Shown piece by piece: positions 18,193 through 37,405 of a DNA stretch of 64,000 nt. A program made the position numbers and the translations under genes. Every line of letters starts with the position of its first letter. Positions within the stretch are counted from its first letter, which is position 1. The DNA is from Alphaproteobacteria bacterium (lineage in GTDB: Bacteria > Pseudomonadota > Alphaproteobacteria > UBA828). The stretch is taken from NCBI GenBank assembly GCA_011523425.1, contig WTGU01000056.1, forward strand, positions 1 to 64,000, given 5' to 3'. A model generated the notes under the pieces. The model saw only the letters and a program-made list of their open reading frames with translations. It searched no databases and had not been told where the DNA came from.

Positions 18193-20359
18193 CGCCCGCA
18201 TCATGAGGGTCGTCTTGTGGCTGGCGTTTGCGGGCCTTCTCGGGCTGTACGCGCCGGCGGCGGGTGCACAGCAGGCCGGCGACGAGCCCGGCCTGCGCGA
18301 GGCGTTCGTCGGCGACGTCCTGATGACCGCCGACGAGCTGGTCTATGAGGACGACGCCGACACGGTCATCGCGTCGGGCAACGTCGAGGTGGCCCAGGGC
18401 GGGCGGGTGCTGCGCGCCGCCCACATCCGCTACAGGCGCGGCGACGGGGTGGTGACGGCATCGGGCGATGTTGCGCTGCTGGAGCCGGGCGGCGAGGTGA
18501 TGTTCGCCGATTCCGTGGAGCTCACCGGCGATCTGCGGAACGGCGTGATCCGTCGTCTCAGCGCGCTCCTGACCGACAACTCGCGGCTCACCGCGAGCAG
18601 CGCGCGGCGCACGGACGGCAACCGCACGGCGATGCGGAAGGCGGTGTTCTCTCCCTGCGAGCTCTGCCCCGACAATCCCGAGCGGGCGCCGCTCTGGCAG
18701 CTCAAGGCCGACGCCGTGATCCACGACCAGGAGGCGCGCTCGCTGACCTACAACGACGCCTGGCTCGAGTTCTTCGGCACGCCCGTCCTGTACACGCCCT
18801 ATTTCCGACATCCCGATCCGACCGTGGCGCGCCAGACGGGATTCCTGGTCCCGCGCTACCGGAGCTCGACCGCGCTCGGCGTGGACGTGACGGTTCCCTA
18901 TTATTGGGCCATCGCCCCCAACCGGGACCTGACCTTCTCGCCGCGGTTCACCTCCGAAGAGGGCGTGGTGCTGGCGAGCGAGTACCGCGAGCGCACGCGG
19001 GACGGCCGCTTCAGCATCGATGCCAGCCTCACCCGGGCGAACACCCCGTCCGAGGATAACCGCAGGATGCGCGGGCACCTCTTCGGCGAGGGCGCGTTCG
19101 ATATCGACCGGGAATCGCGCTGGGGCTTCACCCTGGAGCGGGCCCTCGACGACACCTATCTGAACCGCTACGACATCTCGTCGAAGGACGATCTGATCAC
19201 GAATCTGTTCGCGGAAACATACCGGCGGCGTAGCTACGTGGCCGGCAACGGCTACGCCTTCCAGAGCCTCCGCGCTGGCTACCAGGGCGACCGCACCCCG
19301 ATCGTCCTTCCCCTGCTCGAAGCGAGCATCGTGAGCGCGCCGCGCTACGCCGGCGGCTACACCACGCTCGACGCGAACCTCATGGTGCTGGAGCGGCTGG
19401 AAGGGAACGACAGCCGGCGCTTCTCGATCACCGGCGGCTGGCACCGGCCGGCCATCCTGGCAGGCGGCCACGTCGTCCGGCTGGATGCGAGCGTGCGCGG
19501 CGACATCTACCACGCCTACCTCTCCGACGCCGTCTCGCGGCTGCTCGACAGGCCGCAAAGCGAGACCGCCTGGCGGCTGGTGCCCGAGTTCGCCAGCGAA
19601 TGGCGCTTTCCGCTCGTCGCCCGCATCGGGACGATCCGCCAGCTCGTGGAGCCGATCGTGCAGGGTGTCTTCAGCCCCTACGGCGTCAACCCCGGAGAGA
19701 TCCCAAACGAGGACAGCCGGGACCTCGAGTTCGACCACACCAATCTGTTCAGCACTAACCGCTTCCCCGGCTTCGACCGCATCGAGACCGGGCTGCGCGT
19801 GAACTACGGCGTTCGCCTCGGATTTTTCGGTCAGAACGGCGGCCGCGTGAGCGCCATAGTCGGACAAAGCGCTCGCGCGAAGGACGACAGGCAGTTCTCT
19901 GACGGCAGCGGGCTCGAACGCGAGCTTTCCGACGTGATCGGTCGCATCTTCGTGCAGCCGTCGCCGTTGCTGGACCTCTCCCTGCGGTTTCGCCTCGACC
20001 ACCGCAACTTCGCCACCAGGCGCAACGAGATCGACCTCGATGTCGGCCCGGAGTGGCTGCGGGCGCGAATCGGTTTCGCCGACCTGGAACGGCAGCCCGA
20101 GAGCATCATTGGGGAGTCCGTCGGCGGCAGGGAGGGCGTGCTCGGCGTCACGTCGGGTCTCTCCGGCGGCTGGACGCTCTCCGCCGAGACCCGTCGCGAT
20201 CTCAAGGACGATGCCAGCATCGACTGGAGGGCGGCTCTCGCCTATGAAGACGAATGCATCCGAATCAGCACCGGCATCTCGCGGTCCTTCACCCGCGACC
20301 GGGACATCCAGCAGGATACGGTCTTCCACCTGGCCGTCAAGCTGAGGCCCGCGGGGTGA
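18185..20359 (+). CDS. lptD: LPS assembly outer-membrane protein LptD
   Basis: A 724-residue outer-membrane translocon that inserts lipopolysaccharide into the outer leaflet. After a signal peptide (cleavage near the AAGAQQ segment) comes the OstA/LptA-like beta-jellyroll (TADELVYEDD...GNVEVAQGG), then a long beta-barrel domain rich in alternating aromatic strands. A CELC pair after the jellyroll and a single cysteine near the C-terminus (DECIRIS) could form the disulfides known to be needed for LptD function. The start at 18185 overlaps lptG; a second ATG six codons later is also possible. Confidence 0.92.
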   Translation: MASARIMRVVLWLAFAGLLGLYAPAAGAQQAGDEPGLREAFVGDVLMTADELVYEDDADTVIASGNVEVAQGGRVLRAAHIRYRRGDGVVTASGDVALLEPGGEVMFADSVELTGDLRNGVIRRLSALLTDNSRLTASSARRTDGNRTAMRKAVFSPCELCPDNPERAPLWQLKADAVIHDQEARSLTYNDAWLEFFGTPVLYTPYFRHPDPTVARQTGFLVPRYRSSTALGVDVTVPYYWAIAPNRDLTFSPRFTSEEGVVLASEYRERTRDGRFSIDASLTRANTPSEDNRRMRGHLFGEGAFDIDRESRWGFTLERALDDTYLNRYDISSKDDLITNLFAETYRRRSYVAGNGYAFQSLRAGYQGDRTPIVLPLLEASIVSAPRYAGGYTTLDANLMVLERLEGNDSRRFSITGGWHRPAILAGGHVVRLDASVRGDIYHAYLSDAVSRLLDRPQSETAWRLVPEFASEWRFPLVARIGTIRQLVEPIVQGVFSPYGVNPGEIPNEDSRDLEFDHTNLFSTNRFPGFDRIETGLRVNYGVRLGFFGQNGGRVSAIVGQSARAKDDRQFSDGSGLERELSDVIGRIFVQPSPLLDLSLRFRLDHRNFATRRNEIDLDVGPEWLRARIGFADLERQPESIIGESVGGREGVLGVTSGLSGGWTLSAETRRDLKDDASIDWRAALAYEDECIRISTGISRSFTRDRDIQQDTVFHLAVKLRPAG

Positions 20360-20369
20360 GGCGGCGGTA

Positions 20370-21335
20370 ATGCGTCGTCCGATCGTCCGCGCGGCTCTGC
20401 TTATGCTCGCGCTCCTGCCGCTCGCTTTAGGCCCGGCCGATGGCGCGCGTGGCCAGGAGGTCGTGCGAATCGCCGCAGTGGTCAACAACGAAGCGATCTC
20501 CGTTCCTGATCTCGTGGCGCGGATCGACGTCGCCATCGCCTCGTCCCGCCTGCGTGCCGACGATGAGCTGCGGCGCCAGCTTGCGCCGCAGGTGCTCCGC
20601 GCGATGATCGACGAGCGGCTGAAGCGGCAGGAGGCGGAGCGCCGCGAGGTGACGGTCGGCGAAGAGGAGATGGCCGGCGCGCTCAGGACCCTCGAGCAGC
20701 GCAACGGAATCCCCGAAGGCGGCTTCGAGGACTTCCTGAGAGACCAGGGTCTCGACGTGTCCTCGGTCAGGGAGCAGATCCGCGCCGAGATTCTGTGGGC
20801 CAAGCTGGTGCGTCGCCGCCTGGGGGCATCGGCCGCGGTCGGCGAAGGCGAGATCGACGAGGCGATCGCCCGTCTGGAGGCCAACCGGGGGCGTCCCGAA
20901 TACCGCGCCGCCGAGATCTTCCTCGCGGTGGACTCAGGCGAGGGTGAGGAGGAGGTGCGTGCCGCTGCGGCGGGGCTCTACGAGCAGCTTGCGGCGGGCG
21001 CGAGCTTCACCCAGATTGCCCGCCAGTTCTCGCAGAGTGCGACGGCCGCAGTCGGCGGCGACATCGGCTGGGTCGTCGGGGGGCAGCTCCCGAGCGAGAT
21101 CGACGATGTGCTTGCGCGCATCGAGCCGGGAGACATCGCCCCGCCGGTGCGGTCGTTCGACGGCTACTACATCATCTCCTTGATCGATCGCCGCACGGTG
21201 CTCTCGAGCGCGTCCTCCGCCGGCCCGGATCGGGAGGAGATCCGGCAGGAGATCGCGGGGCGGCGAATGGAAATGCTCGCCCGGCGCTACGTGCGCGACC
21301 TGCACCGTTCGGCCTTCATCGACATACGCATTTGA
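20370..21335 (+). CDS. surA: SurA-like periplasmic peptidyl-prolyl isomerase
   Basis: A 321-residue periplasmic chaperone for outer-membrane proteins. A signal peptide covers about residues 1-28. The SurA N-terminal chaperone region follows (VVNNEAISVPDLVARI, then LRAMIDERLKRQEAERR), and one parvulin domain spans roughly 175-280 (YRAAEIFLAVD, ASFTQIARQFSQS, GGDIGWV, DGYYIISLIDRR). E. coli SurA has two parvulin domains and about 428 residues, so this is the short single-domain type. It lies directly after lptD, its main known client, and overlaps ksgA. Confidence 0.88.
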   Translation: MRRPIVRAALLMLALLPLALGPADGARGQEVVRIAAVVNNEAISVPDLVARIDVAIASSRLRADDELRRQLAPQVLRAMIDERLKRQEAERREVTVGEEEMAGALRTLEQRNGIPEGGFEDFLRDQGLDVSSVREQIRAEILWAKLVRRRLGASAAVGEGEIDEAIARLEANRGRPEYRAAEIFLAVDSGEGEEEVRAAAAGLYEQLAAGASFTQIARQFSQSATAAVGGDIGWVVGGQLPSEIDDVLARIEPGDIAPPVRSFDGYYIISLIDRRTVLSSASSAGPDREEIRQEIAGRRMEMLARRYVRDLHRSAFIDIRI

Positions 21336-33563: not shown

Positions 33564-35063
33564 ATGGCCACGCGCGTTCCCCTCGAGGAAGCAACGACAG
33601 AGACGCCGGGCTATCGCTCCCCGCCGAGCAATCTCGAAGCCGAGCAGGCGCTCCTCGGCGCCCTGCTGGTGAACAACGAAGCCGCCAGCCTGGTCAGCGC
33701 CTTCCTGCTGGCGGAGCATTTCCTGCTGCCGGTGCACGGCCGCATCTACGACGCGGTCCTCCGCATGATCGAACGCGGGCAGATCGCCAACCCGGTGACG
33801 CTGAAGCACTTCTTCGAGCGTGACGAGGGGCTTGAGGAAGCCGGCGGCGGTCAGTACCTGGCGCGGCTCGCGGCGTCCGCCGTGACCGTGATCAACGCCG
33901 AGCACTACGGGCGCGCCATCCACGATCTCGCGCTGCGGCGCGCGCTGGTCGGCATCGGCGAGGACGTGGTGAACGAGGCCTACGACGGGCCGCCGGACCA
34001 GCCGGCGTCCGAGCAGATCGAGGAGGCCGAGCATAAGCTCTACCAGCTCTCCGAGGAGGGCAGGGTCGACCCCGGCGGGCAGGACTTCGCGTCGCCGCTC
34101 GCCAGCGCCGTCGAGATGATCGAGCGGGCCTACAAGCGGGACACCCATCTGACCGGCGCGCCGACCGGCTTCAACGATCTCGACCGCCTGCTGGGCGGGC
34201 TGCATCCATCCGACCTCGTCATCCTGGCCGGCCGCCCCGGCATGGGGAAGACGGCGCTCGCCACCAACATCGCCTTCAACGCCGCCTCGCGCTTCGACGA
34301 AGGCAGCGACGGGCCGGACGGCAAGCGGCCGGGCGACGGCGCGAGGGTCGCCTTCTTCTCGCTGGAAATGTCGGCCGAGCAGCTCGCGACCCGCATTCTC
34401 GCCGAGCAGACCGGCATCCCGTCCGACAAGCTCAGGCGCGGCGAGGTGCGCGACGCCGACTTCGGCGAGATCGTCAAGGCCAGCCGGGAGATGGAGGTGC
34501 TGCCGCTCTTCATCGACGATTCGCCGGCGCTCACCATCGCCGGCCTGCGCGCCCGCGCCCGCCGACTGAAGCGCCGTCACGGCATCTCGCTGATCGTCGT
34601 CGACTACCTGCAGCTCATGCGGCCGACCACGAGCATGCGCCTCAACAACCGGGTGCAGGAGGTATCGGAGATCACCCAGGGCCTCAAGGCGCTGGCCAAG
34701 GACCTGAACCTGCCCGTGCTCGCGCTCTCGCAGCTCAGCCGCGCCGTGGAGAGCCGGGACGACAAGCGGCCGCAGCTCGCCGACCTGCGCGAATCCGGCT
34801 CGATCGAGCAGGATGCGGACGTGGTCATGTTCATCTACCGCGAGCAGTACTATCTCGAGCGTCGGGAGCCTGCCGTGGACAACGCCACCGACCATGCCGA
34901 GTGGCAGGAGAAGATGGAGAAGGTCCACAACAAGGCGGAGATCATCATCGCCAAGCAGCGCCACGGTCCCACCGGCAAGGTGGACCTCTACTTCAACGCC
35001 CTGCTGACCAAGTTCGACAATCTCGACTCCGTCCACACCGCGGACGAGGCCCCCCCGTTCTAG
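33564..35063 (+). CDS. dnaB: Replicative DNA helicase DnaB
   Basis: A 499-residue hexameric helicase that unwinds DNA at the fork. The N-terminal domain starts with SNLEAEQALLGALLVNNEA; the RecA-like motor domain contains Walker A AGRPGMGKTALA, Walker B (LIVVDYLQLM), the arginine-containing QLSRAVESRDDKRP and DLRESGSIEQDADVV loops. No intein is present at the usual P-loop or ESGSIEQ sites. The 248-bp upstream region has no gene but holds three imperfect repeats of CCCCGC-N-TTCCA type. Confidence 0.97.
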   Translation: MATRVPLEEATTETPGYRSPPSNLEAEQALLGALLVNNEAASLVSAFLLAEHFLLPVHGRIYDAVLRMIERGQIANPVTLKHFFERDEGLEEAGGGQYLARLAASAVTVINAEHYGRAIHDLALRRALVGIGEDVVNEAYDGPPDQPASEQIEEAEHKLYQLSEEGRVDPGGQDFASPLASAVEMIERAYKRDTHLTGAPTGFNDLDRLLGGLHPSDLVILAGRPGMGKTALATNIAFNAASRFDEGSDGPDGKRPGDGARVAFFSLEMSAEQLATRILAEQTGIPSDKLRRGEVRDADFGEIVKASREMEVLPLFIDDSPALTIAGLRARARRLKRRHGISLIVVDYLQLMRPTTSMRLNNRVQEVSEITQGLKALAKDLNLPVLALSQLSRAVESRDDKRPQLADLRESGSIEQDADVVMFIYREQYYLERREPAVDNATDHAEWQEKMEKVHNKAEIIIAKQRHGPTGKVDLYFNALLTKFDNLDSVHTADEAPPF

Positions 35064-35090
35064 GCGCCGCGGGTGCTCGCTCCCGCAAAT

Positions 35091-35105
35091 GTTCTTGTAA
35101 TGTTC
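35091..35105 (+). promoter_or_regulatory. LexA (SOS) box, alphaproteobacterial type
   Basis: GTTC-N7-GTTC (GTTCTTGTAATGTTC), the direct-repeat LexA box of alphaproteobacteria, lies 24 bases before the start of the radical SAM gene. An A/T-rich stretch around it stands out from the GC-rich surroundings. It overlaps the expected -35 region, so LexA binding would repress the gene. Confidence 0.75.
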
Positions 35106-35129
35106 TTATTTCTCGCATAGCCTGCGAGC

Positions 35130-36194
35130 ATGAGGGAGGTGCGCAAGGGGCGGGGGGCGGCGAGCAACCGGAGCGGGCGCTACGAGCGCCACCGGCACGA
35201 GGCGTTCGACGACGGCTGGGGCACCATCGACGAGGAGCCGGCACCGCTCGGGACCGAGGTGCGCCCGGACGCGAGCCGCACGGTGATCGCGCGCAACGCC
35301 TCGCCCGACCTCGGCTTCGACCGCTCCATCAACGTCTATCGCGGCTGCGAGCACGGCTGCGTCTATTGCTACGCCCGCCCCACCCACGCCTTTCTCGGCC
35401 TGTCGCCCGGCCAGGACTTCGAGAGCCGAATCTTCGCCAAGCACGATGCCCCCGCCCAGCTCGAACGCGAGCTCGCCCGTCCGGGCTACACCTGCCGCAT
35501 GATCGCCATGGGCACCAACACCGACCCCTACCAGCCGACCGAGCGGCGCCTCGCGCTCACGCGGGGGGTGCTCGAGGTGCTGGAGCGCTGCGAGCATCCC
35601 GTCGGCATCGTCACCAAGTCGGCGCTGGTCGTGCGCGACGCCGACATCCTCTCCCGCATGGCCCGGCGCCGGCTGGCCACCGTGTCGCTCTCGGTCACGA
35701 CGCTGGACCGCGATCTCGCCCGCACCATGGAGCCGCGCGCCTCGACCCCGGCCAAGCGGCTGGAAGCGATGAAGGCGCTCGGCGCGGCGGGCGTGCCGGT
35801 GGGGGTGATGGTGGCGCCCATCGTGCCGGGCCTCACCGACCACGAGATGGAGGGGATCCTGGAGGCCGCGCATGCGGCGGGCGCGGGCCGCGCGGGCTAT
35901 GTCCTGCTGCGGCTGCCGCGCGAGGTGCGGGAGCTCTTTCTGGAGTGGCTCTCCGTCCATGCGCCGAACAGGGCCGGGCGCGTCGTCTCGCTGCTGCAGG
36001 GGATGCGCGACGGCGCGCTCAACGACCCGCACTTCGACTCCCGCATGACAGGCAAGGGGCCCTATGCCGCATTGCTGGCCGCGCGTTTCGCCAGGGCGAC
36101 GCAGCGGCTCGGCCTCGCGCGCCGCGGGCCCGGCCTCGATACCGAGCGCTTCCGCCCGCCCTCGCGCGATCCGGCCCAGCTCGCTCTCCTCTGA
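35130..36194 (+). CDS. PA0069-family radical SAM protein
   Basis: A 354-residue radical SAM enzyme. The [4Fe-4S] cluster motif CX3CX2C is C73-E-H-G-C77-V-Y-C80 in INVYRGCEHGCVYCYARP. It is followed by TNTDPYQPTERR and SVTTLDRDLARTMEPRASTP, stretches shared with SplB/Rv2578c/PA0069-type proteins, some of which repair DNA photoproducts; this subgroup's reaction is not known to me. A LexA box overlaps its promoter, which fits a DNA-damage role. It is followed by rnhB after 24 bases. Confidence 0.88.
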   Translation: MREVRKGRGAASNRSGRYERHRHEAFDDGWGTIDEEPAPLGTEVRPDASRTVIARNASPDLGFDRSINVYRGCEHGCVYCYARPTHAFLGLSPGQDFESRIFAKHDAPAQLERELARPGYTCRMIAMGTNTDPYQPTERRLALTRGVLEVLERCEHPVGIVTKSALVVRDADILSRMARRRLATVSLSVTTLDRDLARTMEPRASTPAKRLEAMKALGAAGVPVGVMVAPIVPGLTDHEMEGILEAAHAAGAGRAGYVLLRLPREVRELFLEWLSVHAPNRAGRVVSLLQGMRDGALNDPHFDSRMTGKGPYAALLAARFARATQRLGLARRGPGLDTERFRPPSRDPAQLALL

Positions 36195-36218
36195 CCGGCG
36201 CCCGTGCTAGAAGGCGCC

Positions 36219-36869
36219 ATGGCAGGGAGGCGCGCGCCGCGGGCACGGCCCGATCTTTCGCTGGAAGCTGCGGCGGGCGTGCGCGTGGCCGGGGTCGACG
36301 AGGCCGGCCGCGGCCCCTGGGCCGGGCCCGTGGTGGCGGCCGCGGTGGTCTTCGCGGCGGACGGCCCGCCGCCGTCGCTGAGGGTCGCCGTCACCGATTC
36401 GAAGCTGCTGACGGCGGAGCGCCGCGCCGCCCTTCATCCGGCGATCCTGGCCTGTGCCGATGCCGCCACGGGCCTCGCCAGCGTCGCCGAGATCGACGCC
36501 ATGAACATCCTCCAGGCCACCCTGCTCGCCATGCGCCGCGCGGTCGCCCGGCTGGCGGAGGCGCCCGACGCCGTGCTGGTCGACGGCAACCGGGTTCCGC
36601 ACCTGCCCTGCCCGGCACGGGCGGTGGTGGGCGGCGACCGGCAGAGCCTCTCGATCGCCGCCGCCTCCATCGTCGCCAAGGTCACGCGCGACCGGCTGAT
36701 GGCGGAGCTCGCGGCGCACCACCCGGGCTATGGCTGGGAGCGCAACGCGGGCTACGGCACGGCGGAGCACCGGGCCGGCCTCGCGCGCCTCGGGCCCTGC
36801 GCGCTCCATCGGCGCTCCTTCCGCCCGATCCGCGCGCTGGTCGACGGGGCGGCGGAGGCATCTCCGTGA
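36219..36869 (+). CDS. rnhB: Ribonuclease HII
   Basis: A 216-residue nuclease removing misincorporated ribonucleotides and RNA from RNA-DNA hybrids. The active-site signature [14 protein letters not shown] (Asp27, Glu28) is near the N-terminus; [18 protein letters not shown] and the [12 protein letters not shown] segment follow. The ATG at 36219 is chosen; an in-frame GTG at 36204 would add five residues, but a -10-like TAGAAG six bases before 36219 overlaps that extension. The stop overlaps the following YkuD gene by four bases. Confidence 0.94.
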
Positions 36870-37405
36870 GCAGGGCGCGCGCCGACGACCTCGTCGTCCG
36901 CCCGCCGGGCACGCTCCGCTGGCGCGGGCGCCGCTTCGCCTGCGCGATCGGCTGGGGCGGGGTGCGCGCGGACAAGCGCGAGGGCGACGGCGCGACGCCT
37001 GCCGGGCGCTTCCCGCTGCGCCGCGTCCTCTACCGGCCGGACCGCCTGGCCCCGCCCCGCACCGCGCTCCCCATCGCGCCGCTCGGCCCGCAGGACGGCT
37101 GGTGCGACGATGCCGGCCACAACCTCTACAACCGGCCGCTCGGCCTGCCCCACGCGGCCCGTCACGAGGCGCTGTGGCGCGAGGATCACGTCTACGACCT
37201 GATCGTCATCCTCGGCCACAACGACGACCCCGTCGTGCCGGGCATGGGCAGCGCGATCTTCCTGCACGTGGCCGGGCCGGACTATGCGCCGACCGCCGGC
37301 TGCGTCGCCCTGGCACAAGCCGATCTGCTGACGGTCCTGGCGGCCATCGGCCCGCGGGTCTGGCTCCGCGTGCCGCCAGCACCAGGTGCGACGCGCTTGA
37401 GCTAG
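36866..37405 (+). CDS. L,D-transpeptidase (YkuD) domain protein
   Basis: A 179-residue YkuD-fold protein. The active-site block reads [16 protein letters not shown], with His134 and nucleophilic Cys146; the usual S/T-H-G-C is T-A-G-C here, a variant seen in short alphaproteobacterial members. The N-terminal [21 protein letters not shown] motif is typical. No signal peptide is visible, so export, if needed for peptidoglycan cross-linking, is unexplained. GTG at 36866 overlaps the rnhB stop. The TAG stop lies at the first bases of repeat R1 copy 2. Confidence 0.82.

Follow-up and report, generated by a model that had tools for sequence, protein, structure and literature searches.

A short direct repeat between a helicase gene and a radical SAM gene in this alphaproteobacterial contig resembles a binding site for the SOS repressor LexA. 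It raises the question of whether the radical SAM gene, its downstream neighbors or neither would be under LexA control, and of what the encoded enzyme might do in a cell with damaged DNA. We examined the locus within the 64,000-nucleotide stretch of DNA that was analysed (the window), within its genome, and across collections of related loci. The features discussed below, in window coordinates, are:

33564..35063, + strand: dnaB, replicative DNA helicase, upstream in the same direction and outside the SOS unit (NF006606, 722.8 bits, cut-off 540)
35069..35086, + strand: terminator-like hairpin with a weak T tail, between dnaB and the box (1 found, 0.4 expected)
35091..35105, + strand: predicted LexA operator GTTC-TTGTAAT-GTTC (kept at 151 of 174 loci in Alphaproteobacteria and at 68 of 80 in a second collection)
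35095..35100, + strand: putative -35 element TTGTAA, inside the operator (153 of 219 boxed loci have TTG here)
35118..35123, + strand: putative -10 element TAGCCT, 17 nt after TTGTAA, a poor match
35130..36194, + strand: PA0069-family radical SAM protein, 354 aa (NF033668, 507.8 bits; PF04055; predicted model with pLDDT 86.4 and pTM 0.86)
35346..35369, + strand: [4Fe-4S] motif C73-x3-C77-x2-C80 (CEHGCVYC), its three cysteines invariant in 213 relatives
36204..36869, + strand: rnhB, ribonuclease HII, starting at GTG 36204 or ATG 36219 (NF000595, 241 bits, cut-off 167; PF01351)
36866..37405, + strand: L,D-transpeptidase-domain (YkuD) protein, whose gene shares 4 nt with the end of rnhB (PF03734, 48.2 bits)

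The site at 35091-35105 on the plus strand reads GTTCTTGTAATGTTC, that is, GTTC-TTGTAAT-GTTC. In front of it dnaB ends at 35063, and behind it the 354-aa open reading frame begins with the ATG at 35130; exactly 24 bases separate site and start codon, which confirms the placement given in the preliminary description. The hairpin in front of it is by itself no evidence of function. In its loose form, GTTC-N7-GTTC, the motif occurs three times in the window against 0.77 expected, and 35 times in the whole genome, where the reversed pattern occurs 24 times; the pattern alone is thus weak evidence. The full 15-mer, with at most one mismatch, has two sites in the genome: the present one and another in front of a DUF5131 radical-SAM-like gene.

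Conservation among orthologues had been proposed as a check on the site, and absence of the box from close relatives as a finding that would speak against it. That adverse outcome did not occur. Of the 21 genomes in the family sample, 18 contain NF033668, and the exact box precedes the gene at 17 of those 18 loci. The class sample contains the family above its cut-off in 131 of 241 genomes. All over-cut-off matches of these two samples, together with part of a further search, make up a set of 174 alphaproteobacterial loci; from the further search 30 loci and 40 non-alpha regions were taken, and its alphaproteobacterial matches beyond these and those of the class sample were left out. Within a span from -250 to +60 around the position equivalent to residue 1, the exact box was found in 151 of the 174 loci, compared with 6 of 174 for the reversed-motif control. 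Among the other 23, a one-mismatch match is present in 12 and none in 11, the latter including one locus (L132) that has only 27 nt of upstream DNA and was scored as a miss. A second collection of named organisms, including Agrobacterium, Rhizobium, Bradyrhizobium, Brevundimonas, Azospirillum, Bartonella and others, has the box at 68 of 80 loci and the reversed control at 1 of 80; these are the best 80 of 595 relatives, lean to close relatives and may share species with the first set. The conserved element extends to T-GTTC-TTGWWWT-GTTC-T, a form that the window matches, and the flanks diverge while the box stays. On Sinorhizobium meliloti pSymB, GTTCTTGCTTTGTTC lies 80 nt before the annotated start of its copy. 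One record named Mycobacterium sp. KBS0706 (L279, NZ_VCCH02000001.1) holds an alphaproteobacterial-type gene and box and is probably mislabelled.

Outside the class, the operator takes other forms. None of the 40 non-alpha Pseudomonadota loci has the alphaproteobacterial box. Exact CTGT-N8-ACAG, which we take to be the LexA operator of beta- and gammaproteobacteria, occurs within 250 nt upstream at 27 of the 40 (shuffle mean 0.05, reversed 0) and is lacking at 13, a count in which one locus (L191), whose fetched region does not hold the whole gene and upstream part, was scored as a miss. In the gammaproteobacterium Aeromonas caviae, for example, CTGTATATATAAACAG begins 26 nt ahead of the matched stretch, and no LexA-type operator was found before the copy of Legionella adelaidensis. 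Two of four actinobacterial relatives checked have a GAAC-N4-GTTC site upstream of the match, namely Streptomyces sp. BHT-5-2 (GAACATGTGTTC) and Nonomuraea (GAACTGCTGTTC); in the Tsukamurella and Arthrobacter relatives no perfect site of this type was found. The operator type therefore changes with the lineage, from the alphaproteobacterial box to CTGT-N8-ACAG to GAAC-N4-GTTC, in front of the same enzyme family.

These comparisons bear on whether the repeat means anything and on which gene it serves. That it arose by chance is an idea to which the merely mild genome-wide excess of the loose pattern (35 against 24) lends some color; we regard its probability as negligible, because the boxed fractions in both collections dwarf their controls and because the conserved boxes stand at short distance from the gene with their inner bases kept as well. 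We reject the chance reading on the conservation among alphaproteobacterial loci, and by this comparative measure the box is real and the matter settled. It is also conceivable that the operator serves rnhB, for ribonucleotide removal after damage, and that the radical SAM gene is a passenger. In the window, rnhB begins only 9 nt (GTG) or 24 nt (ATG) after the radical SAM stop codon, and a same-strand rnhB is found somewhere in the available stretch at 93 of 174 alphaproteobacterial and 57 of 80 named loci. It lies within 200 nt, however, at only 46 of the 174 loci (within 300 nt at 52), and at 106 of the 151 boxed loci the 200-nt span contains no rnhB. Near the non-alpha radical SAM genes rnhB was found at 0 of 40 loci, in stretches that differ in length, yet at 27 of these 40 the radical SAM gene is immediately preceded by CTGT-N8-ACAG. 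The box thus accompanies the radical SAM gene even at loci that lack rnhB, and belongs to it; rnhB as the real target is largely refuted, and we give this reading very little credence. The adjacency of rnhB is a lineage feature, and rnhB is probably a passenger in LexA regulation. The co-transcription with rnhB suggested earlier is plausible here, given the 9-24 nt gap. The YkuD gene is a possible third gene of the unit. Other conserved neighbors in the alphaproteobacterial loci, named by eye, are a moaB-like gene upstream and a ccrM-like methylase gene downstream. At three loci (L016 746-760, L021 3407-3421 and L024 856-870) a second GTTC-N7-GTTC precedes the downstream ccrM-like DNA methylase gene, and these second boxes adjoin TTAA repeats recalling CtrA sites.

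The genome that carries the window encodes its own repressor: lexA (TIGR00498) lies at G000:C108:3014-3712, and its own box, GTTCTAGTTTAGTTC, precedes the start of the open reading frame by 43 nt on the opposite strand. The recA gene is at a contig end with its promoter missing and a DnaE-type match is also at a contig end, which leaves lexA as the only classic SOS gene usable as a positive control. Across the class, 211 of 241 genomes have a lexA match. Three of the 131 genomes with the radical SAM gene (G125, G209 and G220) fall outside these matches, yet their loci are boxed; the absent matches are probably gaps in drafts. The conserved alphaproteobacterial box, taken with the LexA operators of other groups, makes LexA control of the PA0069-family enzymes very likely. 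The proposal of an SOS-induced radical SAM protein thereby gains strong comparative support from the class-wide box, from CTGT-N8-ACAG at 27 of 40 loci and from GAAC-N4-GTTC at 2 of 4, and a place for the enzyme in the bacterial DNA-damage response is very probable.

How LexA might act on the gene is suggested by the position of the operator. A sigma-70 promoter scan at the window locus found no promoter; the one proposed here is based on counts by position over the 219 boxed loci. TTG occupies box positions 5-7 in 153 of these, and a hexamer matching TATAAT in at least 4 of 6 positions lies 24-29 nt past the box start in 91, against about 42 in shuffles. The spacing between the TTG element and the -10-like hexamer in boxed loci is 16-18 nt, and the -10 candidates of relatives (TATGCT or TATGAT) are better than that of the window. 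These counts suggest that the operator covers the -35 element of the radical SAM promoter. LexA bound at 35091-35105, a stretch that would overlap the -35 region, could then keep RNA polymerase off the promoter, until RecA filaments on single-stranded DNA provoke LexA self-cleavage and the radical SAM gene is derepressed. By read-through, rnhB and the YkuD gene would probably be derepressed together with it.

The product is a member of the PA0069 family, matching NF033668 over model positions 1-348 of 348 at 507.8 bits against a cut-off of 360. With the CX3CX2C motif and the Radical_SAM domain (PF04055, 74.9 bits), it also belongs to the radical SAM superfamily. It is related to the Rv2578c family of Actinomycetota (NF038135) at 221.8 bits, below that family's cut-off of 430; the two also differ in operator, GAAC-N4-GTTC being found at 2 of 4 actinobacterial relatives. 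A PADLOC search gave no match for the window protein, and the single PHROGs match is to a family of unknown function. We aligned 213 proteins, consisting of the window protein and the loci with a stop-free translation of more than 300 aa, the rest being dropped; the window's own locus (L028) is also among them and is counted twice. The three cluster cysteines are invariant and would hold the [4Fe-4S] cluster that cleaves SAM to give a 5'-deoxyadenosyl radical. Invariant arginine and lysine residues, together with the motifs TDxYQP and EPR, suggest a defined substrate.

What that substrate could be is approached most directly through the fold. In a predicted structure built from 42 sequences, the nearest solved fold is that of spore photoproduct lyase (SPL, or SplB; PDB 4fhc and mutants), with six SPL entries at Z 18.1-19.0 and the next non-SPL entry at 15.4. 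The best of them, 4fhf, aligns with the predicted model at Z 19.0 and an rmsd of 3.2 over 258 residues, and Foldseek gives E 8.4e-9. By sequence the likeness is faint: a profile search of the PDB, taken to E 1, retrieved no SPL chain, and a direct profile comparison with SPL found similarity over 68 columns only (probability 27.8). Both proteins share the CX3CX2C motif, a tyrosine before the third cysteine and a local resemblance around EPR..RL..AG..V.AP. The catalytic residues of SPL are another matter. Cys140 of the Geobacillus enzyme is the hydrogen-donor cysteine, and the SPL chains show this cysteine, replaced by Ala in 4fhe, and Tyr98, replaced by Phe in 4k9r. Among the 213 proteins, no cysteine is conserved besides C73, C77 and C80, the next most frequent being C122 at 43%, followed by one at 32%, and no conserved counterpart of Cys140 was found. 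Tyr79, the equivalent of SPL Tyr96, is invariant; at position 81, the equivalent of Tyr98, 135 proteins have Phe and 78 have Tyr. The family has thus not retained the hydrogen relay of SPL, and the label photoproduct lyase should not be assumed.

It could still be argued that the enzyme is a true SPL that reverses 5-thyminyl-5,6-dihydrothymine by the ordinary chemistry, as the database label SplB implies. The fold scores, the cluster motif with the invariant Tyr79 and the local similarity are what this view has to offer; set against the lack of a conserved cysteine beyond the cluster, the mostly substituted Tyr98 position and the failure of the sequence-profile search to retrieve SPL, it seems to us improbable, and SPL chemistry for this family is unsupported. 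The earlier suggestion of a possible repair enzyme is accordingly plausible as far as the closest solved fold goes, but not as UV-lesion repair by the SPL route. Alternatively, the gene might be LexA-controlled while its substrate is RNA, a protein or a metabolite that the damaged cell needs, for instance in tRNA or ribonucleotide metabolism, rather than damaged DNA. The next fold matches, at Z 14-15, are lipoyl synthase, NifB, SuiB and viperin, no DNA-binding domain was identified in the protein, and the conserved alphaproteobacterial neighbors are housekeeping genes. The best fold match, however, is a DNA repair enzyme, and LexA-type operators of unrelated sequence stand before the gene in several groups; we would give a non-DNA substrate perhaps one chance among a few. 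The enzyme's most likely target is damaged DNA or nucleotides, and its chemistry would dispense with SPL's cysteine hydrogen donor. The account that we favor as a whole, in which a LexA operator lies over the promoter, SOS induction relieves repression and the product is an enzyme of SPL fold acting on damaged DNA or nucleotides, appears to us probable with good confidence.

Regulation of such genes by LexA has a history in print. In the available text of Sanchez-Alberola et al. 2012 (PMC3323433), a LexA-regulated splB, termed a photoreactivation enzyme, is predicted in alpha- and beta-Proteobacteria and described as not observed in gammaproteobacterial SOS networks. As far as that text goes, it shares with our analysis an SPL-like radical SAM gene with LexA sites of differing motifs across groups; it differs in that we cover many more loci, beta/gamma-type operators and the missing SPL cysteine, and the splB of that work may not be exactly the PA0069 family. 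In their accessible parts, other reports place SplB or a radical SAM protein in the SOS response of Bacteroidetes, Gram-positives and Balneolaeota, and also in operon analysis (PMC8565304, PMC7739468, PMC3765255). For the radical SAM gene vnz_31145 of S. venezuelae, the portion of the study available gives a fold change of 19.97 in mitomycin RNA-seq and a LexA ChIP signal, and its authors liken the gene to thymine cross-link repair enzymes (PMC9380542). That LexA-bound, mitomycin-induced gene, which may or may not be of the PA0069 family, is from another phylum and has another operator. According to the text at hand of a further study, it is doubtful that a Streptomyces protein of the Rv2578c family deserves the name SplB (17.6% identity, RMSD above 4 Å), and loss of this protein had no evident fitness cost (PMC12924846). 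LexA control of SPL-like genes is already known, and the present gene is a further, well-supported member. Cirz in 2006 reportedly placed PA0069 within the P. aeruginosa LexA regulon, and Davis in 2002 is said to have dealt with Rv2578c; our literature search found no paper tying the name PA0069 to LexA. The surprise lies in the chemistry and the breadth, since the regulation itself had been predicted in 2012 (PMC3323433, from the text available). LexA operators of unrelated sequence precede this one enzyme family in different groups of bacteria, and its retention in the regulon despite operator changes implies a product that is useful when DNA is damaged. As the label photoproduct lyase misfits the active site, the question becomes which lesion this common SOS radical SAM enzyme acts on.

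The other best box of the genome, GTTCTCGTAATGTTC, precedes the DUF5131 radical-SAM-like gene (PF07505, 325 bits), which is followed by TcmP (TIGR04474, 217 bits); the unit lies at L002 1418-2209 and 281-1378 (G000:C33 ~19280-21208). Thirty DUF5131 loci were examined out of 36 matches in 33 genomes of the class. The box is present at 7 of the 30 (reversed 0 of 30), including all five of the closest relatives with this genome's own counted in, and TcmP-like open reading frames at 11. The products of the two boxed genes recall a known pair: the window protein is related to radical SAM mobile pair protein B (TIGR04470, 97.7 bits) and the DUF5131 protein to mobile pair protein A (TIGR04471, 72.6 bits). 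In the mobile pair the two genes adjoin each other, and in Eubacterium eligens a MarR regulator accompanies them, whereas here the loci are separate and each has a LexA-type box. We would tentatively entertain, as a conjecture that falls short of an even chance, that a widespread SOS enzyme is represented by the PA0069/Rv2578c group, reversing or processing a different DNA lesion by an undescribed radical SAM chemistry, with an SPL-like fold that lacks the cysteine relay, and maybe sharing a pathway with DUF5131-TcmP.

Two further boxes in the genome deserve mention. GTTCACTATATGTTC (L004 2510-2524; G000:C55:22009-22023) lies about 260 nt upstream of mraZ, the first gene of the division and cell-wall cluster, and LexA control of this cluster is possible. 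GTTCACTATTTGTTC (L005 2746-2760; G000:C63:6745-6759) stands directly before an open reading frame that is imuA-like by eye and cut by the contig end; a Pfam search of it gave no match. The PA0069-family gene itself also occurs in fragments. At G334:C1 77869-97961 and G482:C1 73363-80321 such pieces lie next to or around another copy, and two viral contigs (L312 and L313) end inside the gene. These pieces and contig ends suggest that mobile elements integrate near the codons of the cluster motif, for which the Streptomyces phage Samy, as presented in the accessible text of PMC12924846, may be compared. Acidianus two-tailed viruses (phage records H47-H50) also carry a domain distantly related to that of the radical SAM protein, at about 27% identity.
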